From the NCBI RefSeq assembly GCF_002159665.1, contig NZ_NFJC01000010.1:16839-80838 (forward strand): 64,000 bases of DNA, written 5' to 3'. Below, piece after piece: positions 1 through 58,596 of the stretch. How positions within the stretch are numbered: the stretch's first letter is position 1; every line of letters starts with the position of its first letter. The position numbers and the translations under genes were made by a program. Source of the stretch: Desulfovibrio sp. An276 (GTDB lineage: Bacteria > Desulfobacterota > Desulfovibrionia > Desulfovibrionales > Desulfovibrionaceae). Under the pieces are notes generated by a model, which worked only from the letters and a program-made list of their open reading frames with translations, was not told where the DNA came from and ran no database searches.

Positions 1-408
1 GTACCCAGTGAGATAACCGCTCATGTCCGAACTGGCAAAGACGCCGGTCCGCACACCCTTGCTGTCCTCCGGCACGTAGCCAGCGTTCTCAAAGGCCCTC
101 CAGGCGTATTCCAGGACAAGCCTGTGCTGGGGATCCATGATGCTGGCGTCCCTTGGGGAAAAACCGAAGAAGTCGGCGTCAAAGAGATCGAAATCCCTGA
201 GAGAGCTGCGCATGGACACGTAGTCGGGTTCGTGACGCAACCGGGAGTGAAGTCCTGCTGCCAGAATTTCCTCGGGTATGGGCTCCATGCTTTGCCGACC
301 AGCCACAAGATTCTCCCAGAATTCCTGGACTGTGTCCGCTCCGGGCAATCGGGCGGCCATGCCTATGACAGCAATGCAGTTATCGTCATACGGATAGGTC
401 TTGCTCAC
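1..408 (-). CDS. Polyketide synthase, beta-ketoacyl synthase N-terminus (partial, runs off left edge)
   Basis: The minus strand encodes 136 residues with the opening of a type I ketosynthase: IAVIGMAARLPGA near the N-terminus, then FGFSPRDASIMDPQHRLVLE, the classic KS entry motif. The active-site Cys and both His residues would lie beyond the window. The start is a GTG at 408 preceded by GGAG eight bases upstream. It follows the stop of the C-A(MT)-PCP gene by 12 bases, so it is the next station of the same operon. By collinearity a ketosynthase here would take the peptidyl chain from the upstream carrier and extend it with malonate. Whether AT, KR, MT or TE domains follow cannot be seen. Confidence 0.93.
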   Translation of the reverse strand, partial: MSKTYPYDDNCIAVIGMAARLPGADTVQEFWENLVAGRQSMEPIPEEILAAGLHSRLRHEPDYVSMRSSLRDFDLFDADFFGFSPRDASIMDPQHRLVLEYAWRAFENAGYVPEDSKGVRTGVFASSDMSGYLTGY

Positions 409-420
409 GGTCTGTACTCC

Positions 421-3400
421 TTAGCGAGGGGATTGGCGCAGAGTGCGCCTGTTGCGCCTTTGGGGGCGACCCGGCAGGTTGCCCGAGGGCGGGGTCCCGG
501 TGTTTTTTGCAGCTGTCTGTTCCTGTCCGGAAAGGTAGACCGACAGGGCGTGGATGGTGGGGTACTGGAAGAGAACGGACAGGGGAAAGTTCTTCTTGAG
601 CTTTGTCTGGATCATCTGGTGAACCTGGGTGAGCAAAAGCGATGTTCCGCCAATCTCGAAGAAATTGTCGTGCACGCTCACTTCATCAAGGCCGATAACG
701 AGCTTCCAGATATCTGCCACGCACGTTTCGTCTGCCGTACCAGGCAGCTGCATGCCGCTTGCACTGGCAAAGAGCCTTGCGTTGGGGCTGGGCAGGCGCT
801 TCCAGTCTATTTTGCCCGAGGGGGTGCGGGGCCATTCGGGAACGGTTACAAGGACGTCCGGCAGCATGCTCTTGGGCAGTTCTTCGGCAAGGTAGCCACG
901 CAGCCTAGCGCGCAGGGAGCTTTCATCGCGGCTTGTCGCCGGGACGTTGGCGCACTCGGCAGGATCCGGAAGGGGAACACTGGCTGACGGCCAGGGCACG
1001 CCAAGGCACGGAGGCTTTTGCCCCTTATGGTAAAAGAGGGCGTTGAGGCTCAGCCCGTCTCCTGCGTCCAGACTGACACAAACCTCCAGATTCCGGGCCT
1101 GGGCAAGCTCGTGCAGCTCCTCCGGACTCAGTCCTCTTGTGCGGGGATTCTCGTCTCTGGAAGCCTTTTCGAGCATCTCTTCCAGAGTTGCCCCTTTCCC
1201 GGAAAGGACGCTTTCCTCGGCCAGATCCTCGAGCTTGCGGTAGAGGGCAAGACGGGCTGAAGGGATGGAGGCCAGCGCGAGAGCCTGTTCTCCGCTTGCG
1301 GCAAAGCCTGCCAGCAGGTCTCGTACCTGTGCGTACGATGAGCATTCCCCGCTCCCCCATGTGTGCATGACACCATTGAACCGCTCATGGGGCACGGTAT
1401 CGCAGTACAGCACCACCTCATAGCGGAATTCGGTGAGCTCGTTGGCGCTCCTGCCTTTCTTGGGGGAGACCTGCACGGCCGCGATGCGGGGAATGAGGCG
1501 CTGTATCGCCTGCCAGAAGGCTGGGGCAAGCAAAAGCTCGCTTTCCATGCGCTTTCTTGCGCGGGCACGGTCCAGAAATTCCTGTGCCCCGACACTGTTC
1601 GGGCAGCGGTGGGTCTGAATGGCAATATGCAGAAGGTCAAGGCCCGCGAGATTGCGCAGATCGCCGAGAAAGACTTTCCCTCCGAAGTCCAGCCTGTCCA
1701 CAGCCTGGCGCACGGCTTCAATGCAGTAGGCGTAATCGGGAAAATACTGGACAACGGAATTGAATATGGCCGTATCAAAGGTTTGCTCGCCAATGCCTTC
1801 AAGCGAGGACAGGGCTGTGGCCTCGGCCACAAGCAGCGTCATGTCGGCATGGCAGGCATTGTCCCTGTGTTCTCCCACATTTTCACCGAACAGGTCTTCA
1901 AGGCAGGCCAGGGCTTCGCTTGAGATGTCAATGCCCGTGTACCTGTCGCACGTCTGGACCAGATCCATGAGCAGAAAGCCCTGACCGCAGCCGATTTCAA
2001 GGACATTTTTGGGGAACAGGGCATGAATCGAGGCCAGGCTTTCGGCCAGCCATTCGCGCATTTCTTCCACAGGCAGATGTTTTCCCGTGTAGCTGCTTTC
2101 CCAGATGAGGAAATTGTCCAGAATGTTGCCCTGGCTGCGGACATTTGCGTACATGCTGTCGTAGAGGCTTGCCCACTGGAAAAGGCATGCTGCGCGGCTT
2201 TTTTCCAGTTCGGCTTGGCTGTTCTCGCTCTTTTCGTCTTTCTCGTGCGAGCCCTGCGCAAGAATGGGGATGACGTAGGCGACCAGCCTTGGCTCGGGAC
2301 GCGCATACCCTCCGGACTCCGCGGGGCCAGAGAGGGCGAGGACACGGGCCTCGCGCACCTGTGGGTGTCGCTCAAGGACATGCTGGATCTGTTCGGGCTC
2401 TATGCGGACCCCGCGGCGCTTGATCTGTCTGTCTGCACGGCCAAGATGATGGACAAGTCCCTGTTCGTCCACCCTGGCAAGATCTCCTGTGCAAAACCAG
2501 ACAGACTGTCCCGTCTGCTCGACAAGGGAGGCGTAGGCCGCGTCCGTGCAGTGCGCATGATGGTCGGAGGTGAGCCAGGCATCTTTGCCGGATGCGCTTG
2601 CTGCGCCAGCGTAGCCCAGGGCAAGGCAGGCGCCCGCCACATGCAGCAGGCCTGTGGCACCCTGGGGTACGATTCTGCCGTCTGCGTCCAGAACTGCAGC
2701 CACGGCATTGTGGATGGGGATACCGATGGGCACGCTGCCGCTCTGTCTCTGGACAATCTCGTAAAAGGTCGCATCGCCCATGACTTCCGTAGAGCCGTAC
2801 AGGTTGAGCAGGCGAACGGAAGGCAGAGCCTCGAGAGTGGCCGTGGCCAGATCGCTTGGCAGGGTCTCCCCGCTTGCGGAAAGAAGGCGCAGGGAGGTAA
2901 GCCTGCCTTCCAGGCCACCGGTGATACGATGCATCTGGGCCAGCAGGGACGGAACCAGAACGAGGCGCGTGACCTTGTGGCGCTCAAGCGTCTGTATGAA
3001 CCAGGGGACATCGGCAGCCTTCTTGTCCGGCAGGCAGACCAGGACCACGCCTCCGAGCAGGGGGCCGAGGGCTTCCCAGAGAAAATCCACAAAAACCGGC
3101 GAGGTTTTCTGGCAGCAGACCTCGCCATCGCCCCAGGGAAACTGTTCCCACATCCAGTGCAGACGGTTGGAGATCGCACCAAGGCTCAGGCGCACGGCCT
3201 TGGGTTTGCCCGTCGAGCCGGAAGTATAGAGCACGCAGGCGCAATCTTCGCAGGCCATGGGTGCGGCCGGATCCCCAAGCTCGCTCTCTTCCCGTGTACT
3301 CAGGGCTTCTCCAGACACTTTTTCGACATCCAGGAGAAGAGCAGGATCCCCCTGCCAGTGCCTTTTGCTGCTCACCACGCAGGACACATGGGCGTCCTGG

Positions 3401-5238
3401 CACAGCCAGCGGGCAAAGCTTGCCGGATGCTCGCTGGCAAGGGTAGTGAACACGGCCCCCTCACGCCAGACGGCAAGAATTGCTGCCAGAAGATCCACGC
3501 CCTGCTCGAGGCAGAGCAGAACAACGCTGCCTCTGCCAACGCCGTGTCTGCGCAAGCGCAGGGCAATCTGTCCGGCACGGGCCAGTACCTGGGCCCTGGT
3601 GTGGGATGCGGTACGATTTCCATTCCCGTCAGGGACGATGGTACGCACGGCCTCGGCGTCGGGATGGGCAGTGCACAGGGAAACATAGTCCTGCCAGGGG
3701 GCAATGAGAGGGTGGTTGCGCCTGCTGCCACTGACCAGGGAGCTCCTGTGGCTGTCCAGTCCCAGGCAAAGGACACTTGTGCCTGCTGCGGACGGATTTT
3801 TTGCGACAAAGCATGCCAGCTCCCGGAACTGTTCGGCAAGGGCCGCAATGGTCGCCGGCTGGAACAGATCCGTTGCGTAGAGAATCTGGCAGTCCATGCC
3901 CTCGTCCCCTGGCCATGCCAGAAGCTCGAGATCCATGTGGGTTGTCAGGCCCGGCACGGGCAAAGGGGTGAGCACAAGAGTTTCCCCACCCTGCAAATCG
4001 GTGTTTTTCGCGCGCAGCGACTGCATGTTCTGGTAGGTAAAGGCCACCTGATAGACTGGATTGCGGCTCAGATCCCGCTCGCGCCCGAGGGCTTCGGCCA
4101 GCATCTGGAAGGGCAGTGTGGCATGTTCCATGGTGGTCAGACTTTCGTCGCGTACCCGACGGACAAGGTCACGCAGGCTTTCCTGCGGGTCGATGCGAAT
4201 GCGCAGGCTCAGGTTTTCCACGAAAAAGCCGGCCAGAGCTTCCGTGGCAGGCAATGACCGCCCGGCAAAGGAGGAGCCTATGGCAAAGTCGTCTTGCGCG
4301 GCAAAGCGCGCTGCAGACAGGGCAAAGAGGGCAAGCCAGACAGCGTAGGGAGTCGCCTGTTCTGCGCGGGCAAGCTCACTCACGGCATCAAGAACATCCC
4401 TGTCAAGGTGCAGGCTGTGCACAGACCCGCGGAAGGTTTGTACCGCAGGCCTGGGAAAATCCGTGGCCGGCTCGAAATTGGGGAGATTGGCCAGATGTTC
4501 CTGCCACCATGTGGTCTGCGCCTTGCGCGCGTCCTCGACAACAGCCCTGTGCCAGGCCGCATACTGGAAATAGGAAACATCAAGAGGGACATAGGACGGA
4601 GGCCTGCCAAGACTGCGTGCTGCGTGGGCGAATTGCAGATCCTTCAGGAAGATGCCGATGGACCAGCCATCAAAGACAATGTGGTGAGCCGTGAAGAGCA
4701 ACACCTGGCTTCCATCTTCCATGAGGCACAGAAAGCCGCGCAGCAGGGGATCCCGTTCGAGGCTGAAGCCTGTCTCTGCCTCGTGACGCATGAGCTGGGC
4801 AAGCCGCGCCCCGGAGACATGGCTGTGCACAGTCAGGGCGAAATCCGTACTTGGCCGGCAAAAGACAAGGGGCTTTCCCGTGTCCGTGGAGCCAATGCCA
4901 ATGCGCAGGCTTTCGTGGCGTTCGACCGTATCCAGCCAGGCCCGGCACAGAATCTCTTCCCGCACAGGCTGTTCCAGGCGAAAGGCGAAGGGTATATTGT
5001 AGAAGGCACTGCCAGGGACAAGCCTGTCCATGAACCACAGACGTTCCTGAGCCAGGGACAGGCAGGGTGGCTGCCCGGAAAAATCGCGGATGTCCGGCCC
5101 GCTTTTTTGGGAAACCTTTTGCCTGACGAGTCTGGCCAGAGCTGCTATGTCCAGTGAGGCTATGTCTGCCGCGGCGTCCAATCCCTGTTTGTGTTCCATG
5201 CCAAACCGTACGTCATTGTTGGGGGCAACTGTGCTCAT
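421..5238 (-). CDS. NRPS module C-A(with embedded methyltransferase)-PCP
   Basis: This is an elongation module of about 1,605 residues. A condensation domain occupies roughly 55-480, with the intact catalytic motif HHIVFDG at 185-191. An adenylation domain begins near 510, with LYTSGSTGKPKAV at about 670 and YGSTE at about 815. A SAM-dependent methyltransferase (VLEIGCGQG near 1079-1087, SVVQYFPDY near 1162) is inserted between the A8 region (RRGVRIEPEQ near 942) and A10 (TPSGKIDWKRL near 1470), the usual place for N-methyltransferases in NRPSs. A carrier domain ends the protein (GGTS, Ser about 1532). There is no thioesterase. My hand-read pocket residues (D-F-W-S-S-S-L-G-D) match no code I know. 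The ATG at 5238 overlaps the upstream stop as ATGA, and in-frame sequence farther upstream lies inside the preceding gene. Confidence 0.93.
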   Translation of the reverse strand: MSTVAPNNDVRFGMEHKQGLDAAADIASLDIAALARLVRQKVSQKSGPDIRDFSGQPPCLSLAQERLWFMDRLVPGSAFYNIPFAFRLEQPVREEILCRAWLDTVERHESLRIGIGSTDTGKPLVFCRPSTDFALTVHSHVSGARLAQLMRHEAETGFSLERDPLLRGFLCLMEDGSQVLLFTAHHIVFDGWSIGIFLKDLQFAHAARSLGRPPSYVPLDVSYFQYAAWHRAVVEDARKAQTTWWQEHLANLPNFEPATDFPRPAVQTFRGSVHSLHLDRDVLDAVSELARAEQATPYAVWLALFALSAARFAAQDDFAIGSSFAGRSLPATEALAGFFVENLSLRIRIDPQESLRDLVRRVRDESLTTMEHATLPFQMLAEALGRERDLSRNPVYQVAFTYQNMQSLRAKNTDLQGGETLVLTPLPVPGLTTHMDLELLAWPGDEGMDCQILYATDLFQPATIAALAEQFRELACFVAKNPSAAGTSVLCLGLDSHRSSLVSGSRRNHPLIAPWQDYVSLCTAHPDAEAVRTIVPDGNGNRTASHTRAQVLARAGQIALRLRRHGVGRGSVVLLCLEQGVDLLAAILAVWREGAVFTTLASEHPASFARWLCQDAHVSCVVSSKRHWQGDPALLLDVEKVSGEALSTREESELGDPAAPMACEDCACVLYTSGSTGKPKAVRLSLGAISNRLHWMWEQFPWGDGEVCCQKTSPVFVDFLWEALGPLLGGVVLVCLPDKKAADVPWFIQTLERHKVTRLVLVPSLLAQMHRITGGLEGRLTSLRLLSASGETLPSDLATATLEALPSVRLLNLYGSTEVMGDATFYEIVQRQSGSVPIGIPIHNAVAAVLDADGRIVPQGATGLLHVAGACLALGYAGAASASGKDAWLTSDHHAHCTDAAYASLVEQTGQSVWFCTGDLARVDEQGLVHHLGRADRQIKRRGVRIEPEQIQHVLERHPQVREARVLALSGPAESGGYARPEPRLVAYVIPILAQGSHEKDEKSENSQAELEKSRAACLFQWASLYDSMYANVRSQGNILDNFLIWESSYTGKHLPVEEMREWLAESLASIHALFPKNVLEIGCGQGFLLMDLVQTCDRYTGIDISSEALACLEDLFGENVGEHRDNACHADMTLLVAEATALSSLEGIGEQTFDTAIFNSVVQYFPDYAYCIEAVRQAVDRLDFGGKVFLGDLRNLAGLDLLHIAIQTHRCPNSVGAQEFLDRARARKRMESELLLAPAFWQAIQRLIPRIAAVQVSPKKGRSANELTEFRYEVVLYCDTVPHERFNGVMHTWGSGECSSYAQVRDLLAGFAASGEQALALASIPSARLALYRKLEDLAEESVLSGKGATLEEMLEKASRDENPRTRGLSPEELHELAQARNLEVCVSLDAGDGLSLNALFYHKGQKPPCLGVPWPSASVPLPDPAECANVPATSRDESSLRARLRGYLAEELPKSMLPDVLVTVPEWPRTPSGKIDWKRLPSPNARLFASASGMQLPGTADETCVADIWKLVIGLDEVSVHDNFFEIGGTSLLLTQVHQMIQTKLKKNFPLSVLFQYPTIHALSVYLSGQEQTAAKNTGTPPSGNLPGRPQRRNRRTLRQSPR

Positions 5239-8200
5239 GCGTTCTCCTGTGGGCTTTGTTGCATGCCTGCGCTGATGCGGGCAATAAGGGTCCTGGCCAG
5301 GCCCTCGACAGTCGGGGTGGCGAAGAAGTCCTGCAGGGGCAGGGAAAGGGGCAGTCTTTCCCTGAGTCTGGTCAGTATCTGCACAGCCTTCAGGGAATCG
5401 CCTCCCAGCCGGAAGAAATTGGTTCGCACCCCGGGAATCCGGCAGCCCAGCACTTCCTGCCACAAGGCGCACAAAAGCTCCTCCAGTGGCGTCACGGGTG
5501 CGCGGTCCTTGTCGTCCCTCACGCTCATGGCCAGGCTTGCTGCCTCTGCAATGAGCGCCTTTCTGTCCACCTTGCCGTTGGCTGTGAGAGGGAACGTCCC
5601 GACAAAACTCCAGATCCTGGGAATCATCTGGGCTGGCAGACGTTTTGCGAGCCAGCCGGACAAATCCTCCTCAAGGGCTGCCCCAGTGTCTGTTGTTCCA
5701 GACATGCCGGATATTTTTGCACCCCTGGGCAGAATGAATGCTCCGAGCACGCGGCCCGAATGTCTCCGGCTTTGGCCTACGGGAACCACAACGGCCCGCT
5801 CCACTGCAGGATGGCGCATGAGGGTTGTTTCTATTTCTGCCGGATCCAGGCGGTAGCCGCCAATGTTTATCTGAAAATCCGCCCGGCCCATGATTTCGAT
5901 GAGTCCGTCCGGGTGAAAACGCCCCACATCGCCGGTGCGGTAGAGGCGTTCGCCTGTCAGGGGATGGGTATAAAAGCGCTGCACGTTGTCCTGCGCCCGG
6001 ATGTCCAGGCAGACATTGACGCCCGCGCAGTACATTTCGCCTGTTACCCAGTCCGGGACATCGGCAAGACGACTGTCCAGCAGGTAGTAGCTGTTGTTTT
6101 CCGTGGCTGCGCCGTAGGGGATAACCGTCCAGCCGGAAGGAAGTTCCTCTTTCACCCTGTACATGATGTTCCAGACCGTTGTCTCCGTGGGGCCGCCAAC
6201 GGAATAGAATTCCGCCTTTGACGAAAGGGCGGCCAGGCGTTTGGGCAGGGTCGCCTCGACCCAGTCTCCGCCTGTCAGAAAGACCCGTATGGGCAGGCGG
6301 ATGCCGCATTCCTCGCAGCGTGTGGCAAGGGCCTTGAGAAAGGCCGGAACACTGTTCCACAGCGTTACCCCGTGCCGCAGGATATGCTCTATCCACACAT
6401 CGGGATCCTGGGCCTGCTCATGGGGCAAAAGGACGAGGGCCGCGCCGGAGGTCAGGGTTCCGAAGACATCGTAGACGCTGAGATCGTGGTGCAGGGCCGT
6501 GATGCCGATGACGCGATCCGTTTTGCCCAGGGCAAGGACTCTGTTGGTGGCAACGCAGACATTGAGCAGGCCGCGCTGGCCGACCACAACGGCCTTTGGC
6601 GTGCCGGTAGTGCCGGAGGTGAGGATAATGTAGGCCGCATCTGCTGCCTGTGGGGCCGTGCGTGCGAGCTCCTCGGCAAGGCCCTGCCTCTCGACGCTCC
6701 CCAAGCCTGCGCTGCCGCACACGTCTTCCGCCAGGAGAAGGCGAATATCGTCAGCCGCAAGCGTCTGTGTGCAAAGCCGTGTTCTGTTTGCCGTATCCGC
6801 AATGACTATGGCTGCATTGCCTGCTCGCAGCATGGCGTGCAGCCTTTCTTCTGGATTTGTGCAGTCCAGGGGCAGATAGGCAAGACCGGCAAGCTCCGTG
6901 CCCATGATGCAGGCAATGCTTCTCCAGCCGCGTTTCAGCACCAGGGCCACGGAACCGGGCCTTGTGTCCGGCAATTCACGTTCGGCGAGGCAGGCAAGCA
7001 GACTCTCGCGCACGGCAAGGGCATGGGCAAGAAGCTGCCCATAGGTCAGTCTGACATCTCCGTCCGCCACGGCCAGCGCGTCCGGGTCTTCCAGTGCCCT
7101 TTCGACAAAGAGTTCGCAGGGCATCTTGTCTGGCAGGGGAAGGGGGCGTGCGTTGCGTCTTGCGCGGACGGCAGCCTGATCTGCCGGCAGGGCTGCCAGG
7201 GAAGGAGCTGTCCAGGCGGCCTCATCCCTGGCTGTCAGACGCACAAGGCGCATGAATTCCGCAAACATGGCGTCGACCATTCCCGAAGGAAAGGCCTGTG
7301 TCTTGCCGTCCCAGTAGATGTGGAGGCAGTCGTTGAAAAGCGTGTACTGGCAGTCCAGCCTGGTCTGCGGCGTAGAACCGTGCGTAGCGCGCACGCTTCC
7401 GAAGGCTTCAAGTACCTGTTCCACCCCCCGATCCGAGCCCTTGCGGGCAGGCATGGCAGTAAAAACAACAGGCATGGCCTCGGCGGCAAGCTCTCCCCGT
7501 CCCCTTGCGAGCTCGCGCAGCAGACGGACGCCGGAGACTTCGGCATGCTCGAGACTGTCCCACAGCGTTTTTTGCAGGGCCCTGGCCCGTTCCAGAAGGT
7601 TGTTGCCGGCCGAAAGGTCAACGGGCACAAGGGTAAAGGTGGCAAATTCGCCCATGACATGGTTGATGGCCTCGTGCCAGCGCAGATTGCGATTGAAGCG
7701 AGGCATGTTCAGGGTAAAGGCTCTGGTGGCACTCCACAGGCCGATAACCTCGCTGTACAGGGAAGCCAGAAGCGCAGTGAGGGAAAGGCCGTGCCTTTTG
7801 CAGCCATTTTCCAGAAAGGCCGTTTCTTCCCTGGTCAGCACATCCGAGTAGCGCTTGATGTCCAAAGCCCCGGAGTCCGCGCCGGCACGATCCACAGATG
7901 GAGGATTGGGAAATACAGGCGCCGCAGGCATGCTTGCAAGCTTTTCGCGCCAGTAGAGCAGGCTTTTTTGGTACTCTTCCGAGGCCTCGAAATCCCGCAG
8001 GGCCAGCATGTAGTCGCGGAAGCTAACGGGCAGAGCCGGCAGAGGCTTGTCCGGATTGAGATAGAGCGCAGCCAGATCCTCGTAGAGTATCTGAAAGCTT
8101 CTCCCGTCCGTGGCCCACATGTCCCAGCGAAAATGCAGCACACCGCGCTTGCTGCCGTCCTCATTGTGGGCAAGCAGGGAAAAATGCACTTCGGACTGGG

Positions 8201-8642: not shown

Positions 8643-8678
8643 GTTTGTCTCTCGCTGGGCTTGGGAATAAGGGGGGGG

Positions 8679-8719
8679 GCGAGGGACAGGCAGGATGTAT
8701 TATTCTGCCTGTCCCTCGC
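8679..8719. repeat. Perfect 15-bp hairpin between two assembly-line genes
   Basis: The arms at 8679-8693 and 8705-8719 are exactly complementary (left arm gcgagggacaggcag) around an 11-base loop. On the transcribed minus strand the hairpin follows the stop of the KS-ACP gene and is followed by a run of nine C rather than T. It therefore looks more like an mRNA processing, stability or attenuation element than a classical terminator. Confidence 0.7.
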
Positions 8720-8733
8720 TTGCAAAAAGGGGG

Positions 8734-14905: not shown

Positions 14906-14910
14906 AGCTT

Positions 14911-23381: not shown

Positions 23382-24202
23382 TGTATATCGTCCTCCGAAA
23401 ATTTGCGGGAAACATCGAAAACAGAAAAATCAAACTCCTGTATGGTTGTCTCAACCTCCTTCTGTTTTGTCAGAATACAGGCACTCAGGACAAAGTCCGA
23501 ATTGCAGAGGGCAAGTGATTGAGCAGAGAGAGGATGCCTGTGCAGGGAAAAGGAAGTGAAGCCGTTTTGAATGTACAGATGGGGAAAGCCGCGGGGAAAA
23601 CCGCAGCCAAGAGCCTTGCACAGGGCTTCCCTTATGGTCCACAGGCGCAGAAAATGCGTTTCGGGCGAAGGAGAGGAAAGCATTTCGACGTATTCTTCCT
23701 TCCGAAAGACCGACTGTGCTATGCCCTCAAAGCCCGCAGGCGTTCTGGCAGGCTCGATGTCTATGCCACAGTGTCCGCAGCAAGTCACAAGGATGGCTAT
23801 ATGGGGCCAGGAATGCGAGAGACTGAAACGCAGGCTACGCAGGCCCTGCGGAGAGGGCTTTGGGAGAAGAAGACCCGGTTTCCCGTATTTGCCCCGGGTG
23901 AAGCGCCAGGCACAAGGCTTGATCTCCGGGCAGTGTTGACTGAGTGCGAGTCTCAAAAGGGCATGGGCTGCAGCGTAGAGGATGCTGTCCCTGGCAAAGC
24001 GAAATTTCCCTGCCTGAGCAAGCTCGCTTGCGTCGAGTAGGGCACAACAGCGTGTATGGAGGCTTACAAACCCTGTTGGCGCATGATTTTTGGAGCCGCA
24101 GAAATGGCTGGCCACCGGCTCCTGAAGACCGGAATTTGCCGAAGCTCGGGTGGCAAGGTCAGTTTCGAGATTTGCGTGCAGTATGTATGCTTTTGTGTCC
24201 AT
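23336..24202 (-). CDS. Sfp-type 4'-phosphopantetheinyl transferase
   Basis: 288 residues. The Sfp-family landmarks are present: FSLSHS at 126-131, CGIDIEPAR with the magnesium-binding Asp148 and Glu150, FRKEEY near 166-171, and LWTIREALCKALG near 187-199. The usual WxxKEA motif has Arg for Lys (WTIREA), a tolerated but uncommon change. It transfers 4'-phosphopantetheine from CoA to the Ser of each PCP and ACP in the neighbouring megasynthases. It is second in the operon, sharing one base (TGATG) with panD and overlapping the first NRPS gene by 46 bases, so it is co-expressed with its substrates. The C-terminal 60 residues are unusually long and unassigned. Confidence 0.9.
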   Translation of the reverse strand: MDTKAYILHANLETDLATRASANSGLQEPVASHFCGSKNHAPTGFVSLHTRCCALLDASELAQAGKFRFARDSILYAAAHALLRLALSQHCPEIKPCAWRFTRGKYGKPGLLLPKPSPQGLRSLRFSLSHSWPHIAILVTCCGHCGIDIEPARTPAGFEGIAQSVFRKEEYVEMLSSPSPETHFLRLWTIREALCKALGCGFPRGFPHLYIQNGFTSFSLHRHPLSAQSLALCNSDFVLSACILTKQKEVETTIQEFDFSVFDVSRKFSEDDIQCPAKQQQIHLCSGV

Positions 24203-24630
24203 CAGGAAGGCTTGTCCGAAAGGGAGGTTATCCTGAAATCATAGGGGAAGTCTTGGGAGGAGAAGACATCATACTGCAGGTGTTCGACAATATTGTTCTC
24301 CCTGTCAAAGGTCAGGATCTGGGGCCTGAGGGAGAGAAGCTGGCTTTTGTCGGAAAGGTATTCCGAAGCGCAGACGATGACCGGATCGCCACGCTGGCAG
24401 CAGCGGGCCGCAGCTCCATTGAGGACGCAGCATTTTGAGCCCGGCTCGCCGTAGATGACATAGGTTGCTATGCGCTGGCCGTTGTTTTTGTTCCAGATGT
24501 ACACAAATTCAAGAGGATAAATGTGAGCCTGACGGCAGATGATCGGATCAAGCGTGATGGAGCCATGGTACTCCAGCTCACAGTCTGTCACATGAATACC
24601 ATGGAGTTTGGAACGGACAACTTCCATCAT
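24202..24630 (-). CDS. panD: Aspartate 1-alpha-decarboxylase (pyruvoyl-dependent), first gene of the assembly-line operon
   Basis: From the chosen start the product is 142 residues and aligns by eye along the whole of E. coli Pan[24 protein letters not shown] matches the N-terminal strand, with the Gly-Ser autoproteolysis site intact (YHGS; the Ser becomes the pyruvoyl group). [16 protein letters not shown] and [18 protein letters not shown] also match. PanD makes beta-alanine from aspartate. Being the first gene after the Fur-like promoter, it may supply beta-alanine as a building block, or boost pantothenate/CoA for carrier priming. I chose the ATG at 24630 because it matches the family N-terminus and has AAGGAG 12 bases upstream. 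A GTG at 24681 would add 17 residues but has no ribosome site. Confidence 0.87.
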
Positions 24631-24806
24631 TTTCTTGTTCAGCTCCTTGTATGGTTGAGGTGCCTTAGCGGTACTTGTCACTATTTCTGTTGCACGGCAC
24701 GAGATGGCGCCAGATTCTCTGGTTGTGTCTGAGCCACGGCAGAAAAATTTTTTTACATAACCTACCTATTCCCTTCTATTTGAATTCTCTGCCCTGACTG
24801 GAAGTT

Positions 24807-24843
24807 TTAATACCGCAAATTGAAATTCATTTTCAATTTGCGG
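24807..24843 (-). promoter_or_regulatory. Fur-like operator overlapping the promoter of the panD/NRPS operon
   Basis: A 13-bp perfect inverted repeat (24813-24825 and 24831-24843) contains TTGAAATTCATTTTCAA at 24820-24836. That is one mismatch from WTGAAAATNATTTTCAW, the Fur signal I recall being proposed for Desulfovibrio species. Read on the minus strand, TTGAAA (24831-24836) and TATTAA (24807-24812) are 18 bases apart, a good -35/-10 pair. A bound Fur dimer would therefore cover the -35 and spacer and repress when iron is plentiful. Confidence 0.72.
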
Positions 24844-25146
24844 CTACAAATGCCCCTGATAATTTCTTGAAAAAATTATATTTTTATTTTTTGGCTATAA
24901 CTCCTTGTCATTGCCAAACAGCCGATAATTGTCATTGCTGCGAATGGAACGGCGACGCCAAGACTGGTCCTCGCCCGAAAGACAGATGGTTTCAGGTCTG
25001 ATCAGGCTCTGGAGTCCATCCCCAGACAGCGGAAGCAATATGGTATTCTGACACTTCATTTTTGGAGAAGCAACGGTTCTGCTTGGGAAGCAGGACGAAA
25101 TAATAATTTAAGTACTTTAAAATATTGATTTTAATAAAAAATGAAA

Positions 25147-25176
25147 TTGAAATCTGATTTCAATATTGAGCATAAA
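25147..25176 (+). promoter_or_regulatory. Fur-like palindrome and promoter for the TonB receptor operon
   Basis: TTGAAATCTGATTTCAA (25147-25163) is a perfect 8-1-8 palindrome resembling a Fur box but with more central deviations than the partner site. Its first six bases can serve as -35 (TTGAAA), with CATAAA at 25171-25176 as a modest -10 at an 18-base spacing. This mirrors the layout of the biosynthetic promoter on the other strand. Confidence 0.55.
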
Positions 25177-25410
25177 AAATCCTTTTCTGAGGATAAAACA
25201 GGTTCAAAAAACTGTATCAGGGAGTAGGTCGAGCATACACTGATACAATTCCTTGTGGAACAGGCATCATTGTCTATTGATGAAAAGCAATACTGAAATG
25301 TCAATTGTTCCACAGCGTACAACAGTATCTTTGAAAGGACACCAGGGGCTGCTTTTTGGAGCATGCAGGATTTCCCTGCGATTTACCTGTTCAAACATGA
25401 AGGAGAAACA

Positions 25411-27618
25411 ATGCTGCCTCGCAAATCGAAAAGGGTACGTAGAGCCAAAAGAAGGAGAATGTCTCTGCTCAGAAAGGGAACGCTTTCCCTTTTTCTTTCC
25501 CTTCTGCTTGCCTCTCCGTCTCTTGCCGCAGAAGATCCCGCTGCTTCCGATGACGTCTATCAGTTGCCCACGGTGACAGTGACCGCGGACAAGAGGGCGA
25601 CTGACGTGCAGAAAACGCCCTCATCCATCACTGTCATGTCCCGCACTAAGCTTGAGGATGCCAATATCGATACCATCGAAAAGGTGCTGCAGCGCATCCC
25701 CAACATGAATTTCAGCCAGTTCACTGGCGGAGCAAACTTCATGTCCATGCGCGGCATCACTACGTCGGCTGGCACATCGACAAGCCCCCTTGTCATGTAT
25801 CTTGACGGCGTGCCTGTGGACACCTTCTTCAATCTCGACGCTCCCCTCATGGACATCGAGCGCATTGAAGTCTTGCGCGGCCCCCAGAGCGCCATCTACG
25901 GCAAAAACGCCATGGGCGGCGTCATCAACGTCATCTCGCGCAAGCCGACCAACGAGTGGCATGGCACATTGCAGGCGGACTACGGCTCCTTCAACACCCA
26001 GCGCTACGCAGCGGCCATCAGCGGACCCCTCATCGAGGACAAGCTCTATCTCGCGCTATCGGGCTCTCATTATTCCACAGACGGCTACATGAACCATGAC
26101 GATACATGGTACGGAAACCAGGAACGTACGGAACGCTTCAAGGGCATGCTGCGCTTTACGCCCACGGAAGACATAGACATCAGCTTCCACCTCAACTACA
26201 CGGCCCGCAGGGATGGCTATTCCAACCTTATCTGGGGAGACGAGCCCACACTGGACTCCATTGCCAACAAGGACGACTACCTGCATTCCGACATCTGGAA
26301 CATGGCCCTGCAAATGTCCTTCGACTTTGACCCTGTCACTTTTGAGTCCATCACTACCTACCGCACGGAAAATCTGGATTATGGCATTGATATGCTGGCA
26401 ACATATGGTGCAGCGTATTCTCCCTATGGTTTAAATCTCGATTGTGCAAACACTGGTCGCAACAATACCCGCAAGGAGTTTACTCAGGAATTTCGCCTGC
26501 GCTCTCCGGACGACAAGAAGGACGGTATCAAGTGGCTTCTCGGTGTCTTTGGTGGCTATACGGACATGAATATCCGTGAGTCCTATTCCGACATGCCCGG
26601 GACATTGCCGGGAGATCTTTTGGATCAGGCATGGGCAGGGATGACTTTTCCTTTTCGCATGTGGACGAACCAGCCGAGTAGAGAATATACGCAGGACTAC
26701 GCAGCCTTTGGCGAGATCACTATCCCTCTCTTTGACAAGCTGAACATCACCCTGGGGTTGCGTGCCCAGCAAACTCACAAGAAAATCGATGTAAACTATA
26801 TGGGTGGTGAGACATATGCTGGCATGGACGTGCCTCTGTTGGGCGTTGCAGGAGACATGCATGGTACAAAATCCGATTCATGGTTTGAGCTTTTGCCCAA
26901 ATTCAACATCAGTTACCAGCTGACAGACGATATCATGTTCTATGGCGGTGTAAACCGCAGTTTCATTCCCGGTGGCTTCAACAATGCTACCAGAACCGGC
27001 ATTGACATGACCTATGACGCCCAGACAGCCTGGAACTACGAAATTGGCGCCAAAACCGAATGGTTCGACAAGCGTTTCCTCCTGAATCTTGCGCTCTTCC
27101 ATTCCGCGGTGAATGATCTGCAGCTCATGAAATATGATATTGGCTCCATGTCCTATCTGAGTGACAACGCAGGGTCTGCCCGCATCTACGGCGTGGAAGT
27201 CGATGCCATGGCTAGACTTTTGCCCGGCCTCGACGCAGAATTCAGCTTTGGCTACCTGTGGACACGATTCGATGACTACACGCATATGGGCAATGACTAT
27301 TCCGGCAACAAGATTCCCTACACCCCGGACTATACGGCAAGCTTTGCCCTGCAGTATCGCCATGAAAAGGGCTTCTTTGCCAGGGGTGAGGTGCTGCATT
27401 ACGGCCAGCTCTACTGGAGCGAGGCCAATGACTACAAGAGGGATCCCGTTACCCTGCTCAATGCCCGCGTAGGCTACGAGTTCGAGCCCTTTGCAGTCTA
27501 TGTCTACGGCAACAACCTGACAGACGCAAAGTACCTCAACTACTACACTGCCACGTCCAATTACGGCATGATGGCCCGTCCGCGCGAAATAGGCGTACAG
27601 CTCAAGTACACATTCTGA
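25411..27618 (+). CDS. TonB-dependent outer-membrane receptor, probably for a siderophore
   Basis: 735 residues. A basic N-terminus and hydrophobic stretch (SLFLSLLLASPSLAA) form a signal peptide of about 40 residues. A TonB-box-like LPTVTVTA and a plug domain follow (SSITVMSRTKLEDANIDTIEKV cut short here; RIEVLRGPQSAIYGKNAMGG is typical of the plug end). A 22-strand barrel ends in the terminal aromatic residue expected for outer-membrane insertion (LKYTF). The likely role is energy-dependent import of the ferric form of the metallophore made by the divergent operon, as FyuA does for yersiniabactin. AAGGAG six bases before the ATG at 25411 decides the start; a longer frame begins at 25363. 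Expression is probably iron-repressed through the palindrome upstream. Confidence 0.93.
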   Translation: MLPRKSKRVRRAKRRRMSLLRKGTLSLFLSLLLASPSLAAEDPAASDDVYQLPTVTVTADKRATDVQKTPSSITVMSRTKLEDANIDTIEKVLQRIPNMNFSQFTGGANFMSMRGITTSAGTSTSPLVMYLDGVPVDTFFNLDAPLMDIERIEVLRGPQSAIYGKNAMGGVINVISRKPTNEWHGTLQADYGSFNTQRYAAAISGPLIEDKLYLALSGSHYSTDGYMNHDDTWYGNQERTERFKGMLRFTPTEDIDISFHLNYTARRDGYSNLIWGDEPTLDSIANKDDYLHSDIWNMALQMSFDFDPVTFESITTYRTENLDYGIDMLATYGAAYSPYGLNLDCANTGRNNTRKEFTQEFRLRSPDDKKDGIKWLLGVFGGYTDMNIRESYSDMPGTLPGDLLDQAWAGMTFPFRMWTNQPSREYTQDYAAFGEITIPLFDKLNITLGLRAQQTHKKIDVNYMGGETYAGMDVPLLGVAGDMHGTKSDSWFELLPKFNISYQLTDDIMFYGGVNRSFIPGGFNNATRTGIDMTYDAQTAWNYEIGAKTEWFDKRFLLNLALFHSAVNDLQLMKYDIGSMSYLSDNAGSARIYGVEVDAMARLLPGLDAEFSFGYLWTRFDDYTHMGNDYSGNKIPYTPDYTASFALQYRHEKGFFARGEVLHYGQLYWSEANDYKRDPVTLLNARVGYEFEPFAVYVYGNNLTDAKYLNYYTATSNYGMMARPREIGVQLKYTF

Positions 27619-27629
27619 TAAACGTCCCT

Positions 27630-27693
27630 GTCCTCACTGTGCCCGGTTTTTCCCCTTGAGCGGAAAAATCGGGAGAGCAGTGGGGACTTTTTT
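27630..27693 (+). terminator. Terminator after the receptor gene
   Basis: A long, slightly imperfect inverted repeat (from gtcctcactg at 27630 to cagtggggac ending at 27687) is followed by six T. It sits 11 bases after the receptor stop and 17 bases before the first ABC gene, so it would reduce read-through into the transporters. Confidence 0.75.
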
Positions 27694-27710
27694 CCTTTCA
27701 GGCAGTATCT

Positions 27711-29471
27711 ATGGAACAAAAGGCGAAAGTCATCCAGATTTCTCCCCTGGCAAAACTGATGCTGGCAGGCTCCCTTGTCTTCGGAGCTATTGACACAGTG
27801 CTCATTCCTGTTCCCTACCTCGCGGCCTGGCTCATTCTCGAGCATCTGGCAGGAAACACGATCTGGCCCATGGACCAGATTTTTTTCTGGGTCTTTGCAG
27901 CCATTGGCGCGCGCTGGCTTGCAAGCCTTCTCTCCACAACCCTCTCGCACCTCTCGGCCATGCAGGTCACAACGGATTTGCGCACAAGGCTTCTCGAGCA
28001 TCTCGGCAGGCTTCCCATGCACTGGCACGCTTGTCAGACCAGGGGGGGGCTCAAAAAGGTTTTTACCAGCGACATCGGCCAGGTGGAGAGCTTTCTCGCC
28101 CACCACATCCCGGACACTGTCTCTGCCCTGCTTCTGCCCATTCTCTCCCTCATATGCCTTTTGTGGGTCAACTGGATCCTTGGGCTGCTGCTTGTGCTTT
28201 TGTTTGTGGCCTGCATCGTCGTGCAGACCACAAGTCTTGCCAAAATGAGCAAAGGCAGCATACTTGGGCGCTACAACAGGGCCCTGGAGGGCCTCAATTC
28301 CGCAGTGGTGGAATTTGTCCACGGCATGCCCGTCATAAAACTCTTCAACAGGGAGCTCTCCTCCTTCTCGAAGATGCGCAGCTGTGTGGACGAGTTCAGG
28401 GACATACAGACCCAGGGCTATGTCACCTTTGCTCCGCGCTGGGCGCTCTTTTCCACCCTCACGGTCATGCCCTTCACGTTGGCTGCCGTAGCCGGAGCGC
28501 CCCTGTATCTTGCGGGTTTGGCAACGCTCTCCGAAGTGACGCTTTTTCTCATGCTGGGCTGCGTGTGCCTGAGCCCTCTCACAAAGCTTGTGCGCCTTGC
28601 CGCCATTGTCTCCGAAATGACGCAGAGCCTGGCCAGGCTTTCGGACATCCTGTCTTCTCCTGCAGAGGAGACAGGCTCCTTTCCCGCGTCCATGGTTCGC
28701 AAGCCTAGGGTTCATGTGCACAATCTGTATGTGCGCTTTGGCGAGAAGACAGTCTTGAAAAACATCAATTTTGTGGCCGAACCAGGCACAACAACGGCAA
28801 TCGTGGGTGCCTCGGGCTCCGGAAAGAGCACCCTCGCAGCTGCCATTGCCGGCCTTGAGCGTATTGATTCCGGAACAATAAGCATTGACGGATACCCTCT
28901 GTCCGCCTTTCCGCCAAAGGAGCTTGCAAGCCTTGTCACGCCGGTCTTCCAGGCGCCGCATATCTTTGCAGGCACAATAGCCGAGAACATCGCCCTTGGC
29001 GTGCAAAATCCGCGCGAGGAGGACATTGTCGCAGCAGCAAATCTTGCCCGCTGCGCGCAGTTTATAGAATCCTTTCCCAACAAATACGCGACAAAAATTG
29101 GCGAAGGCGGTGAAGCTCACTTGAGCGGAGGCCAGAAACAGCGCATTGCCCTTGCGAGGATGGCCTATCGGAGAACTCCCGTTGTTGTTCTTGACGAAGC
29201 CACATCCTACGCCGACGCCCAGAGCGAGGCAGAAATCCAGCAAGCACTTTCGGGTCTTCTCAGGGGGCGTACGGTCATTGTTGTGGCCCACAGACTGCAT
29301 ACCATTGCAAAAGCGCAGCAAATCCTTGTCCTGAAGGAGGGCGAGATTGTCGAGCGGGGAACCCATGAAAGCCTTCTCGCCAGACAGGGCGTCTATGCCG
29401 TCCTGTGGGAAGCCCACCACAGGGCCAGAGCCTGGAGCATACGCACAAAGAGGGAGGCCTGCCCATGCTGA
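27711..29471 (+). CDS. ABC transporter half-unit, fused permease and ATPase (YbtP/YbtQ, IrtA/IrtB-like)
   Basis: 586 residues. An N-terminal membrane domain of about six helices (residues 15-310) is followed by a nucleotide-binding domain. This has Walker A GASGSGKST (366-374), signature LSGGQKQR (471-478) and Walker B VVVLDEAT (491-498), all intact. Fused half-transporters next to a TonB receptor and an NRPS locus are typical of siderophore importers or exporters working as heterodimers. The overlap with the next gene supports a pair. Eight G in a row at 28042-28049 lie inside the coding sequence (Arg-Gly-Gly) and could slip. No strong ribosome site precedes the ATG. Confidence 0.9.
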   Translation: MEQKAKVIQISPLAKLMLAGSLVFGAIDTVLIPVPYLAAWLILEHLAGNTIWPMDQIFFWVFAAIGARWLASLLSTTLSHLSAMQVTTDLRTRLLEHLGRLPMHWHACQTRGGLKKVFTSDIGQVESFLAHHIPDTVSALLLPILSLICLLWVNWILGLLLVLLFVACIVVQTTSLAKMSKGSILGRYNRALEGLNSAVVEFVHGMPVIKLFNRELSSFSKMRSCVDEFRDIQTQGYVTFAPRWALFSTLTVMPFTLAAVAGAPLYLAGLATLSEVTLFLMLGCVCLSPLTKLVRLAAIVSEMTQSLARLSDILSSPAEETGSFPASMVRKPRVHVHNLYVRFGEKTVLKNINFVAEPGTTTAIVGASGSGKSTLAAAIAGLERIDSGTISIDGYPLSAFPPKELASLVTPVFQAPHIFAGTIAENIALGVQNPREEDIVAAANLARCAQFIESFPNKYATKIGEGGEAHLSGGQKQRIALARMAYRRTPVVVLDEATSYADAQSEAEIQQALSGLLRGRTVIVVAHRLHTIAKAQQILVLKEGEIVERGTHESLLARQGVYAVLWEAHHRARAWSIRTKREACPC

Positions 29472-31192
29472 AAACACTACTGGCCCTTGCAGGAAAGGCC
29501 TCTGCTTCCCTGCGCAGGGCAATACTTCTCAACCTGTGCGTCATGGGCGTACAGCAGGCTTCCTATGTGGCTGCGTTCTTTCTGCTTCAGACATTGTATC
29601 TCTCCAGGGAAGGAGGGCAGTCCGACTGGATTGCCTGGGTCGTTCTTCTTGCAGTTCTGGCACTGGCCCATGGCTTTTTCAATCTGCGCTCGCTTGTGTC
29701 CGCCTATACGGGAAGCTACGCCATAAGCGCCAGCCTGCGCCTGCGTCTTTGCGATCACTTGCGCAGACTCTCCCTTGCCTTCTTCAGAAAAACAGACTCA
29801 GGGGTAGTCTCCGGGGCCCTCATAGACGACATCAAGGGCATGGAAGCCTTTTTCGGCATGTATGTCTTTGATCTGGTGACCTGCCTTGTCTTTCCCTGCC
29901 TCTTGTGCGTGCTCATGTTCTTTTTCAGCTGGCAGATTACCGGCGTTCTGGTCTTGTCGGCGGCCCTGGCCTTTCCATTGATTCTCTGGGCCTGCCGCAT
30001 CACGCAACGCCTGGGGCCAGCCTATCTGGAGGCCAGGGACGCCTCGTATTCCTCGCTCATGGACTATGTGGGGGGCATACGCGAGCTAAAGGCGGCAAAC
30101 CTCACAGGCCTTGACTACACGCCCCTTGTTTCCAGCTGGAAGAAATACGGACGTCTGAGCATCCGGATGGAAGGGCAGTACGGTCTTCTGGCACTGGCCT
30201 ATTCCTGCGTTCTCGACATGGGGTTTCTTGCAACGCTCTTGCTTGGCCTTTCCCTGGTGGAAAATCTCACTGTTGGCATCGCAAGCCTCATGTTCTTTCT
30301 CATAGTCGGCAGCCGCTTTGTGGAGCCCATGCGGGAATTCGGCATGGTTTTGCCCGAAGTACGCAGATGCCTGACTGCCGCACAAAAGATTTCCGATATC
30401 CTGGCAGTGCCTGAACCGCAGGTTCTCCCGGAGGAAAAACGTTTCGGGCACGAAATACGCTTTGACAATGTGTCCTTTGCCTATGAACAGGGGAAGAATG
30501 TCCTGCGCAATGTCTCCTTTGTCATGCCCGAAGGAAGCGTCACGGCCCTGGTCGGGCCTTCCGGCTCCGGCAAAAGTACCATTGCCCACCTTTTGCTGCG
30601 TTTCTGGGACGCAGGGAAGGGCAAAATCACCCTTGGCGGCGCGGACATCCGTTCCCTTGCGCAGGAAGAGCTGTACAGAAACTTCAGCGTGGTCTTTCAG
30701 GACGTCTATCTTTTTGATGACACAGTCTTCAACAATATCCGCATGGCAAGGCCAGATGCCAGCCCAGAGGAAGTGTACAGGGCAGCGCGCCTTGCCCGCT
30801 GCGACGACTTCATAAGTTCTCTGGAGCACGGGTACGAAACGCGCGTGGGCGAGGGCGGTGCCAGGCTGTCCGGAGGAGAAAAACAGCGCCTGTCCATCGC
30901 AAGGGCCATCCTGAAGGACGCGCCAGTCATTATCCTCGATGAAGCTACGGCCTCCCTGGATCCGGAAAACGAGCTCAGCATTCAGGAAGGCCTCAACTCT
31001 CTCCTTGCTGGCAAGACATTGCTTGTCATCGCCCACAGGCTGGAAACCATACGCGACGCAGACAACATCCTGGTTCTACAGGAAGGCCGCATAGCAGAAA
31101 TCGGTACCCATGAAAGCCTGCTTGCAGGGGAGGGCCTGTATACAAGGCTGTGGACTTTGCAAAACACCATCAAGTCCTGGCAGCTGGGCTAA
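29465..31192 (+). CDS. ABC transporter half-unit, fused permease and ATPase, partner of the preceding gene
   Basis: 575 residues from the ATG at 29465, which overlaps the previous gene by 7 bases; a longer frame starting at 29405 lies wholly inside that gene. It has a six-helix membrane domain followed by Walker A GPSGSGKST, Q-loop FQDVYLFDDTVF, signature LSGGEKQR, Walker B VIILDEATASLD and H-loop IAHRLETI, all intact. With its neighbour it probably forms a heterodimeric inner-membrane transporter for the ferric complex. IrtAB-type pairs act as importers despite an exporter fold, and export of the metallophore remains possible. A hairpin follows the stop. Confidence 0.9.
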   Translation: MLKTLLALAGKASASLRRAILLNLCVMGVQQASYVAAFFLLQTLYLSREGGQSDWIAWVVLLAVLALAHGFFNLRSLVSAYTGSYAISASLRLRLCDHLRRLSLAFFRKTDSGVVSGALIDDIKGMEAFFGMYVFDLVTCLVFPCLLCVLMFFFSWQITGVLVLSAALAFPLILWACRITQRLGPAYLEARDASYSSLMDYVGGIRELKAANLTGLDYTPLVSSWKKYGRLSIRMEGQYGLLALAYSCVLDMGFLATLLLGLSLVENLTVGIASLMFFLIVGSRFVEPMREFGMVLPEVRRCLTAAQKISDILAVPEPQVLPEEKRFGHEIRFDNVSFAYEQGKNVLRNVSFVMPEGSVTALVGPSGSGKSTIAHLLLRFWDAGKGKITLGGADIRSLAQEELYRNFSVVFQDVYLFDDTVFNNIRMARPDASPEEVYRAARLARCDDFISSLEHGYETRVGEGGARLSGGEKQRLSIARAILKDAPVIILDEATASLDPENELSIQEGLNSLLAGKTLLVIAHRLETIRDADNILVLQEGRIAEIGTHESLLAGEGLYTRLWTLQNTIKSWQLG

Positions 31193-40467: not shown

Positions 40468-40477
40468 GGGGCAGGCA

Positions 40478-53488: not shown

Positions 53489-53621
53489 GCGTTGCTCCGT
53501 TTTGTGCCTATGCATTGCGCAGTTGCCAATTGTATGTGCCCCCAGGGCTTTTCCTGCCATTGAGCATGGCAAAGACCTCGGAGAGGGATTGCAGAAAAGT
53601 CGTTTGTCTGGATTTTGGGGC

Positions 53622-53650
53622 TTGTCACAGTTTCCCAAGTGGTCTAAGTA
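53622..53650 (+). promoter_or_regulatory. Promoter for the FadR-type regulator
   Basis: TTGTCA (53622-53627) and TAAGTA (53645-53650) are 17 bases apart. The expected start of transcription is about 53657, only two bases before the ATG at 53659, so the mRNA may be leaderless. No ribosome site precedes that ATG, in keeping with this. Confidence 0.5.
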
Positions 53651-53658
53651 CTGTTCAC

Positions 53659-58461: not shown

Positions 58462-58596
58462 GGCGGAAAAGGCTTTTTCGCAAGAACGCGCTTGAAAAAA
58501 GGCCCATCGACATGGTCTTGCAAGGGGGACAAGCTGGGCCTTTGCGAAATATTTTCTGCAATAATATCGTTGTATTGCGTGTTGTTTATAGCGAAA

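Follow-up and report, generated by a model that had tools for sequence, protein, structure and literature searches.

What product is assembled by a hybrid nonribosomal peptide synthetase/polyketide synthase (NRPS/PKS) locus of unfamiliar module order in Desulfovibrio sp. An276, and what use is made of it? We examined this locus in a 64-kb stretch of DNA (the window, meaning the whole 64,000 nucleotides from contig NZ_NFJC01000010.1), which is the right-hand part of an 80,838-bp contig (C2) of a 3.2-Mb genome, together with the remaining 16,838 bp leftward on the same contig (L007), which joined the window by an exact overlap. The locus is well supported, at the level of sequence, as a metallophore system of Desulfovibrio with predicted product and metal, because it encodes a receptor of the siderophore class, because the nearest solved relatives of its uptake proteins come from the yersiniabactin system, and because its Fur-type palindromes are common to the feo promoters of two relatives. 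An earlier reading made from the letters alone (the sequence-only reading) had proposed a metallophore of an anaerobe, in agreement with these findings and with the kinship to Desulfovibrio. That reading did not contain the aspartate 1-decarboxylase gene panD, the shifted Asp of two adenylation (A) domains, A3 and A7, or the missing loading domains of modules 4 and 5, which are described below.

Receptor, transporters and Fur-type sites

Divergent from the biosynthetic genes, on the plus strand, are a gene for a TonB-dependent siderophore receptor (25363-27618) and genes for two half ABC transporters (27711-29471 and 29405-31192), as the sequence-only reading had them. The receptor scored over the cut-off of NCBIfam model TIGR01783, "TonB-dependent siderophore receptor" (235.3 vs 223.5 bits). 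It is FyuA-like: its nearest solved relative was the pesticin receptor 4epa (138.7 bits; next 67.8), which we take to be FyuA, the ferric-yersiniabactin receptor. Among half-transporter chains, the first transporter (YbtP/IrtA-like) gave its best score with 6p6i_A, presumably YbtP (250.5 bits; IrtA, 243.7), and the second (YbtQ-like) with 6p6i_B (329.7 bits) and 8vsi_B, named YbtQ (329.0 bits). For both proteins the summed scores of two-domain drug pump chains exceeded those of the half-transporter chains, and no NCBIfam model reached its cut-off for either among the 25 matches listed. The thioesterase (TE) of the cluster resembled stand-alone TEs, with YbtT within its 13 matches. Two TonB_C matches were found in the genome; in the 40 kb examined of Desulfovibrio sp. 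MES5, a receptor, a MATE protein and two TEs were present. The locus therefore holds what a metallophore locus in the broad NRPS/PKS sense would hold, i.e., genes for an assembly line, a siderophore receptor and a transporter of importer type, the direction of transport being predicted.

A 19-bp palindrome, ATTGAAAnnnnnTTTCAAT, was found twice in the window without mismatch by pattern search, both times between panD and the receptor gene (ATTGAAATTCATTTTCAAT at 24819-24837 and ATTGAAATCTGATTTCAAT at 25146-25164); these are the Fur-like sites of the sequence-only reading, and at the level of sequence they place Fur-type sites at the divergent promoters. When up to two mismatches were allowed the window held 2 sites vs 0.17 expected, and 1 of 100 shuffles reached 2. 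Genome-wide, with up to one mismatch, the pattern occurred at 6 places and a reversed control pattern at none; the other four places were without link to named genes. The two window palindromes are likely Fur boxes, with binding predicted, because near-copies lie upstream of feo genes in two relatives. The 1-mismatch palindrome of MES5 lay across the 5' end of the longest FeoB frame, whose first ATG is about 80 bp further downstream, and that of Humidesulfovibrio mexicanus was about 0.3 kb upstream of a FeoA-like frame (by eye) and 0.56 kb upstream of FeoB (Pfam confirmed FeoB in both).

Sites with up to three mismatches were also found at the homologous loci: one before panD in Ca. D. intestinipullorum (G207; 0.1 expected), two in MES5, of which one precedes panD and the other the MATE gene (0.35 expected), and two overlapping sites before panD in H. 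mexicanus (0.1 expected), the panD-upstream palindromes of these three having 1-3 mismatches. G201, a genome of the window's genus, had 7 such sites vs 1.05 expected, three of them before genes (TE/ABC, the last NRPS and probably the receptor). Two further 1-mismatch palindromes of the window's genome (G000:C9:57658-57676 and 58458-58476; L097) are upstream of a 266-aa frame, the nearer about 320 bp away.

Organization of the assembly line

Ten co-directional genes on the minus strand are likely one operon, judged from their spacing, because they overlap or sit at most 91 bp apart. In the direction of transcription, and with domains assigned by Pfam (the labels heterocyclization, Cy, and degenerate condensation, C, being from motifs and a tree), the order begins with panD (24202-24681; PF02261, E 1.8e-37; real start probably near 24627) and a 4'-phosphopantetheinyl transferase (PPTase) gene (23336-24202; PF01648, E 4.4e-14). 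Module 1 (21585-23381) is A1 with a peptidyl carrier protein (PCP), an amino-acid type starter with the code DMMLCGCVFK by eye. Modules 2 and 3 (14911-21585) follow as TubC docking-Cy2-A2-PCP-C3-A3-PCP, and module 4 (11219-14902) as a docking domain, C4, about 580 aa holding no A domain, and PCP4. Module 5 (8734-11238) consists of a ketosynthase (KS5), the remnant of an acyltransferase (AT) with a post-AT linker, and an acyl carrier protein (ACP5). Module 6 (5235-8642) is Cy6-A6-PCP, and module 7 (421-5472; start likely near 5238, where an ATG overlaps the upstream stop) is C7-A7-PCP with a methyltransferase (MT) in A7. The module 8 protein (KS8-AT8-ACP8-degenerate C, 1437 aa) has its first 136 aa at 1-408 and runs 3.9 kb left of the window (L007:12933-16838), with motifs GHSLGE and SHAFHS in AT8; a stand-alone terminal C is the last of the ten. 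Along the line there are eight carriers and six loading domains (A1, A2, A3, A6, A7 and AT8). A PF00668 search of the genome gave six condensation-type matches, all on the cluster contig.

Both Cy domains have the DxxxxDxxS motif (DCWCLDGHS and DMWATDGRS). Of the A domains beside them, A6 is clearly of Cys type (code read as DLYNLGVVW) and A2 more weakly so. The two heterocyclization domains, the Cys-type A domain, the KS-ACP and MT-containing modules and the carrier-priming transferase named in the sequence-only reading were thus all recovered. The module order that it gave stood by Pfam except for its "A*" in module 4, where no AMP-binding match was found to E = 1; the thiazoline half of its "thiazoline/oxazoline" product is likely and the oxazoline half was unsupported, one Cy-linked A domain being plainly and the other loosely Cys-like.

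Homologous genes were found in the same order in MES5 and H. mexicanus. A tree of 20 C/Cy domains paired the window and MES5 position by position, and Cy2, C3, Cy6, C7 and the terminal C also grouped with their H. mexicanus counterparts; H. mexicanus C4 stood at an open fork and was the next best BLAST partner of the C4 domains of the window and MES5. In H. mexicanus the C domain grouping with the terminal C belongs to the last module, C-A9-PCP-reductase (reductase by Pfam). By this grouping, Desulfovibrio would have this C domain without the A-PCP-reductase seen behind it in its relative, and the acceptor could be a free amine. The G201 line ends in C-A(MT)-PCP-reductase. With KS5 as query, matches of at least 50% identity were found in 6 of 79 genus genomes; an order-wide draw of 297 genomes gave 7, namely those 6 plus H. 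mexicanus. A module 4 query matched well past the C domain in 3 of 199 family genomes (the window's own, MES5 and H. mexicanus).

The cluster extends past window base 1, to about -6.9 kb or further. The TE gene is 0.7-0.95 kb beyond the ten-gene set, depending on the start chosen, and after it at the left end come an AraC regulator, a MATE protein with a HlyD-like tail in one frame, a MacB-like ATPase (a label from reading one frame by eye) and two MacB-like permeases. The 936-aa fused frame (L007:5495-8305) has the MATE exporter at about residues 1-470 and the HlyD-like adaptor at 557-844, with the ATPase frame and permeases next; the MATE protein of MES5, unlike this one, is free-standing (489 aa). 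The degenerate domain behind ACP8 (L007:12933-14234, the C-terminal third of the module 8 protein) is condensation-like, lacks HHxxxDG, and is 37% identical to that of MES5; the H. mexicanus module 8 counterpart terminates shortly past its ACP.

Beta-alanine as a building block

Beta-alanine is a likely building block for A3 and A7, with its activation predicted from sequence, because panD opens the operon and because the Asp that would meet the substrate amine is shifted in A3 and A7 as in beta-amino-acid A domains. Asp235 is highly conserved in alpha-amino-acid A domains and contacts the alpha-amine, according to excerpts of a published account (PMC11355689). When A7 (code VDWVSSLGD) was aligned by HMMER with a solved A domain, the motif region was ungapped and V-D-F-L-W fell over D-V-S-V-W, i.e., the Asp was displaced by one residue; A3 (IDTVISFGE) showed the same pattern by eye. 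Across the genomes examined the shift was present in A3 (7/7), in A7 (6/6) and in A9, an additional terminal A domain that H. mexicanus and G201 have (2/2), and the usual Asp was retained in A2 (6/6) and A6 (7/7), as was the amino-acid Asp in A1. The A7 code is like VDWVISLADK, which we take to be the beta-alanine code of the bleomycin and cryptophycin lines; excerpts of the literature on A domains that mention beta-alanine or beta-amino acids held no such code. Assignment of A3 and A7 as A domains for basic amino acids (Glu at position 239) was considered and set aside, since the HMMER alignment puts Val-Asp-x-x-Trp in register.

The panD gene stood at the cluster start in four of the five homologous loci scanned (window, MES5, H. 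mexicanus and G207; not G201). The G204 locus, with a different gene order, had no panD in the 40 kb examined. Against TIGR00223 the cluster panD scored 102.1 bits, just below the cut-off of 106. One additional panD outside the cluster was found in each of the window's genome (contig C28), MES5 and H. mexicanus; among ten other genus-mates scanned, nine had one panD and one had none. The sole panD found in G255 is on a contig other than its 16-kb cluster piece, and the one panD of G201 is outside the stretch examined.

Missing loading domains in modules 4 and 5

Pfam searches to E = 1 of the module 4 proteins of the window and MES5 found docking (weak here), C and PCP domains and no match to AMP-binding or ketoreductase (KR) domains. 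The H. mexicanus counterpart has both AMP-binding and KR between C and PCP (Pfam), with flanks that align with those of the window; an A-KR arrangement is known for hydroxy-acid modules. In module 5, Pfam found KS and ACP and no AT, and GHSxGE was absent, where the H. mexicanus counterpart carries an AT; what remains is some 170 aa followed by the post-AT linker LALPLYPFARISYWL. The active residues were retained in module 5 (KS C187/H323/H360; ACP GGSS, with its serine), as expected of a module of the trans-AT type, and in module 4 the C4 motif HHIIMDG and the PCP4 serine were intact. Given that KS, C and carriers all keep their active sites, loading of modules 4 and 5 in trans is the best reading, as a prediction. 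Three AT matches were found in the genome (AT8, and one each on C47 and C19). Module 4 of G201 is also without an A domain, and immediately before it, on the same strand, is a separate A-PCP gene (L128:6115-8046), a putative trans loader that could hint at how PCP4 is served.

The module 5 comparison used 28 proteins of less than 1100 aa with a usable KS, i.e., the window's and 27 of 32 matches (four longer matches were left out, as was P0032, which has Ser at the place of the KS Cys). GHSxGE was present in 3 of the 28, and the KS Cys-His-His and ACP Ser in all 28. The AT region was 170 aa in the window, 0-274 aa in the 25 proteins without GHSxGE and 343-344 aa in the three with it. P0023 received an AT label from Pfam and lacks the motif; if it is scored as AT-bearing, the KS tree requires at least two changes of AT state.

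Nonsynonymous and synonymous changes were compared as uncorrected Nei-Gojobori proportions (pN/pS). For L037 vs L038, the least saturated pair, these were 0.02/0.14 (KS), 0.22/0.37 (AT remnant) and 0.03/0.20 (ACP) in module 5, and 0.07/0.23 (C4), 0.10/0.29 (remnant) and 0.02/0.20 (PCP4) in module 4. The module 5 values for the window vs L037 were 0.07/0.42 (KS), 0.37/0.53 (AT remnant) and 0.10/0.49 (ACP). Because of these values the AT remnant is, as judged by pN/pS, relaxed, and the KS and ACP are constrained. When the module 4 remnant (581 aa) was modelled with AlphaFold2 from 5 sequences, the mean pLDDT was 39.5, too low for interpretation.

Comparison with known systems

The yersiniabactin gene set comprises HMWP1/HMWP2, FyuA, YbtP/YbtQ, YbtT and YbtA, and HMWP1/2 have carriers without their own A domain, as in the window. 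Further likenesses are Cy-A-PCP thiazoline modules mixed with PKS, the nearest solved relatives of the receptor and half-transporters, a type II-like TE whose matches include YbtT, and an AraC regulator. The window differs in its many small mono- or dimodular proteins, panD, the A domains of beta-amino-acid type and the stand-alone terminal C. No aryl-acid ligase or salicylate synthase was found among the cluster genes scanned (aryl-AMP ligase was searched at the cluster only); genome-wide, the best salicylate synthase score was 180.1 bits, under the cut-off of 325.15, and thiazolinyl reductase had no match. Because no aryl-starter genes were found, the cluster is not a member of the yersiniabactin/pyochelin aryl-thiazoline family, although it shares the DxxxxDxxS Cy domains and Cys-type A domain of that family. 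The sequence-only reading had assigned it to the yersiniabactin/pyochelin type, which in the strict sense does not hold, given also the missing reductase and the amino-acid Asp of A1. The bleomycin and cryptophycin lines have A domains of beta-alanine type with a shifted Asp, and the cryptophycin cluster has an aspartate decarboxylase; unlike the window, these lines are not known to be tied to Fur-linked uptake, and their architecture is different.

Knowledge of the natural products of Desulfovibrionia is described as very limited in the portion available of the report on the bil cluster of Bilophila (PMC11934131), which alone was relevant among excerpts of the literature on siderophores or metallophores of Desulfovibrio and polyketides of Desulfovibrionaceae. 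As excerpted, that report describes three core genes and four modules that begin with an aryl acid (dihydroxybenzoate or salicylate) and continue as Cys-Cys-C2-Cys, giving arylthiazoles (bilothiazoles), some of them antibacterial; the word alanine is absent from its main text (PMC11934131). Common to bil and the window are an origin in Desulfovibrionia, NRPS/PKS genes with Cy domains and a suggested metal role, whereas start, core gene set and order differ, the two having been compared by description and not by sequence (PMC11934131, in part). The closest cluster of Desulfovibrionia among the reports found is bil, and the window's module order, called unfamiliar in the sequence-only reading, was described nowhere in the literature searched, the basis being this literature and not MIBiG or antiSMASH. 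Yersiniabactin clusters are mentioned in metagenome-assembled genomes, not of Desulfovibrio, in excerpts of PMC11324757, and no publication linking yersiniabactin or thiazoline with aspartate decarboxylase was found. The kasichelins of Streptomyces, as excerpted, are siderophores that like the predicted product have beta-alanine (or beta-aminoisobutyrate) beside a Cy-made ring, but they are phenolate/catecholate oxazolines with hydroxamate, and the predicted kas line is without a PKS module (PMC12305651); the word decarboxylase is absent from the main text of that paper.

Proposed pathway and alternatives

We consider it reasonably probable that a predicted metallophore is made and taken up again, probably under Fur control, that it contains two likely thiazolines, two beta-alanine units and two malonate-derived C2 units, and that modules 4 and 5 are trans-loaded. 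The chain would run: amino acid (A1), Cys thiazoline, beta-alanine, module 4 unit, C2, Cys thiazoline, N-methyl-beta-alanine, C2. The module 4 unit would likely be an alpha-hydroxy acid in H. mexicanus, its module being A-KR. ACP5 could be charged, like ACP8, by AT8 (whose HAFH motif we take to be of malonyl type) or by an AT elsewhere in the genome. The type II-like TE would proofread, and release might be helped by the stand-alone terminal C, e.g., onto a free amine, for which free beta-alanine is one candidate. The left-end MATE and MacB-like genes would provide for export, and the TonB receptor and YbtPQ-like pair for return.

Four other explanations were weighed. The panD and PPTase genes may serve only pantothenate/CoA and carrier priming, with A3 and A7 taking another beta-amino acid. 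Their adjacency would suit pantetheine supply, and no panD was found off the cluster contig in G207 or G260; however, a second panD is present elsewhere in the genomes of the window, MES5 and H. mexicanus, where the ten other genus-mates scanned have one or none, and A3 and A7 show the beta-amino-acid shift, which leaves this the likeliest of the four and still unlikely. That loading functions were lost from two neighbouring modules could also mean that the line bypasses modules 4 and 5: their carriers would stay empty, and the growing chain would go over or through them, ending as a shorter product. We regard this as rather improbable, since C4, KS5 and both carriers keep their active sites, and few of the stretches measured are as conserved as KS5, where an unused KS would be expected to drift.

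Less probable again is a conventional thiazoline siderophore of yersiniabactin/pyochelin type, loaded in cis, in which the A and AT domains are merely too divergent for Pfam. The yersiniabactin-system relatives of the receptor, half-transporters and TE and the two Cy domains would fit it, but the AT stretch has 170 aa where the three proteins with GHSxGE have 343-344 aa, module 4 has no AMP-binding match even to E = 1, A1 keeps its amino-acid Asp, and the aryl-starter and reductase genes of the class were not found in the searches given above. A mainly antibacterial or signalling thiazole, rather than a metal carrier, seems the most doubtful: exporters of the MATE and MacB-like kinds at the left end would suit it, as would the activity ascribed to some bilothiazoles in excerpts of PMC11934131, but the siderophore-class receptor, YbtPQ-like pair and Fur-type sites belong to the same divergent unit.

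Several observations weigh against the retaken, beta-alanine-containing and trans-loaded metallophore that we favour. The half-ABC pair and the AraC gene had no homologue in the 40 kb of MES5. Of the two feoB genes of the window's own genome, one lacks any palindrome with up to 3 mismatches in the stretch examined, and for the other there is just a 2-mismatch site; the seven palindromes of G201 are weak, several being inside genes or away from clear promoters. The beta-alanine code given above was printed nowhere in the literature searched; the G201 cluster keeps the shifted Asp yet has no panD within the 60 kb examined; and the single panD found in G207 and G260 may have a part in CoA supply there as well. 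For the direction of AT change we relied on the leftover linker instead of a rooted tree. Free decay is not what the module 4 remnant shows (pN/pS 0.29/0.54 vs 0.20/0.51 for C4, window vs L037); it appears slightly more relaxed than C4 and may have a role.

Neighbouring genes

An HMG-CoA reductase gene (L007:710-2044) is close to the left end of the contig. Adjoining the cluster on the other side is a gene for a Fic/DOC family protein (32037-33095), and further along (36364-43009) are genes for a large GGDEF-EAL protein (1367 aa) and then a CheB-CheR-PAS protein (892 aa). No Pfam match at E 0.001 was obtained for a putative minus-strand gene at 51230-53911 (a frame of 893 aa). An Rfam scan of the window gave 0 matches at gathering thresholds.

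Significance

We tentatively propose, at somewhat less than even confidence, that Desulfovibrionaceae have a separate class of amino-acid-capped beta-alanine/thiazoline metallophores for sulfidic, anoxic places, and that their assembly line shows a cis-AT module becoming a trans-AT one, the AT of one corresponding KS-ACP being whole in Humidesulfovibrio and Oleidesulfovibrio and eroded in Desulfovibrio, along with the A-KR of the preceding module. Two things are new here: a predicted beta-alanine unit accompanied by a dedicated panD, and two adjacent modules from which loading domains have been lost. Loader loss in neighbouring modules, with relatives that retain the loaders, is a natural experiment on the change from cis to trans loading. 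Sulfide from sulfate reducers locks metals up as insoluble sulfides, and little is known of how these bacteria compete for metals in the gut; that question becomes testable with a cluster that combines predicted building blocks with a receptor, transporters and Fur-type sites.

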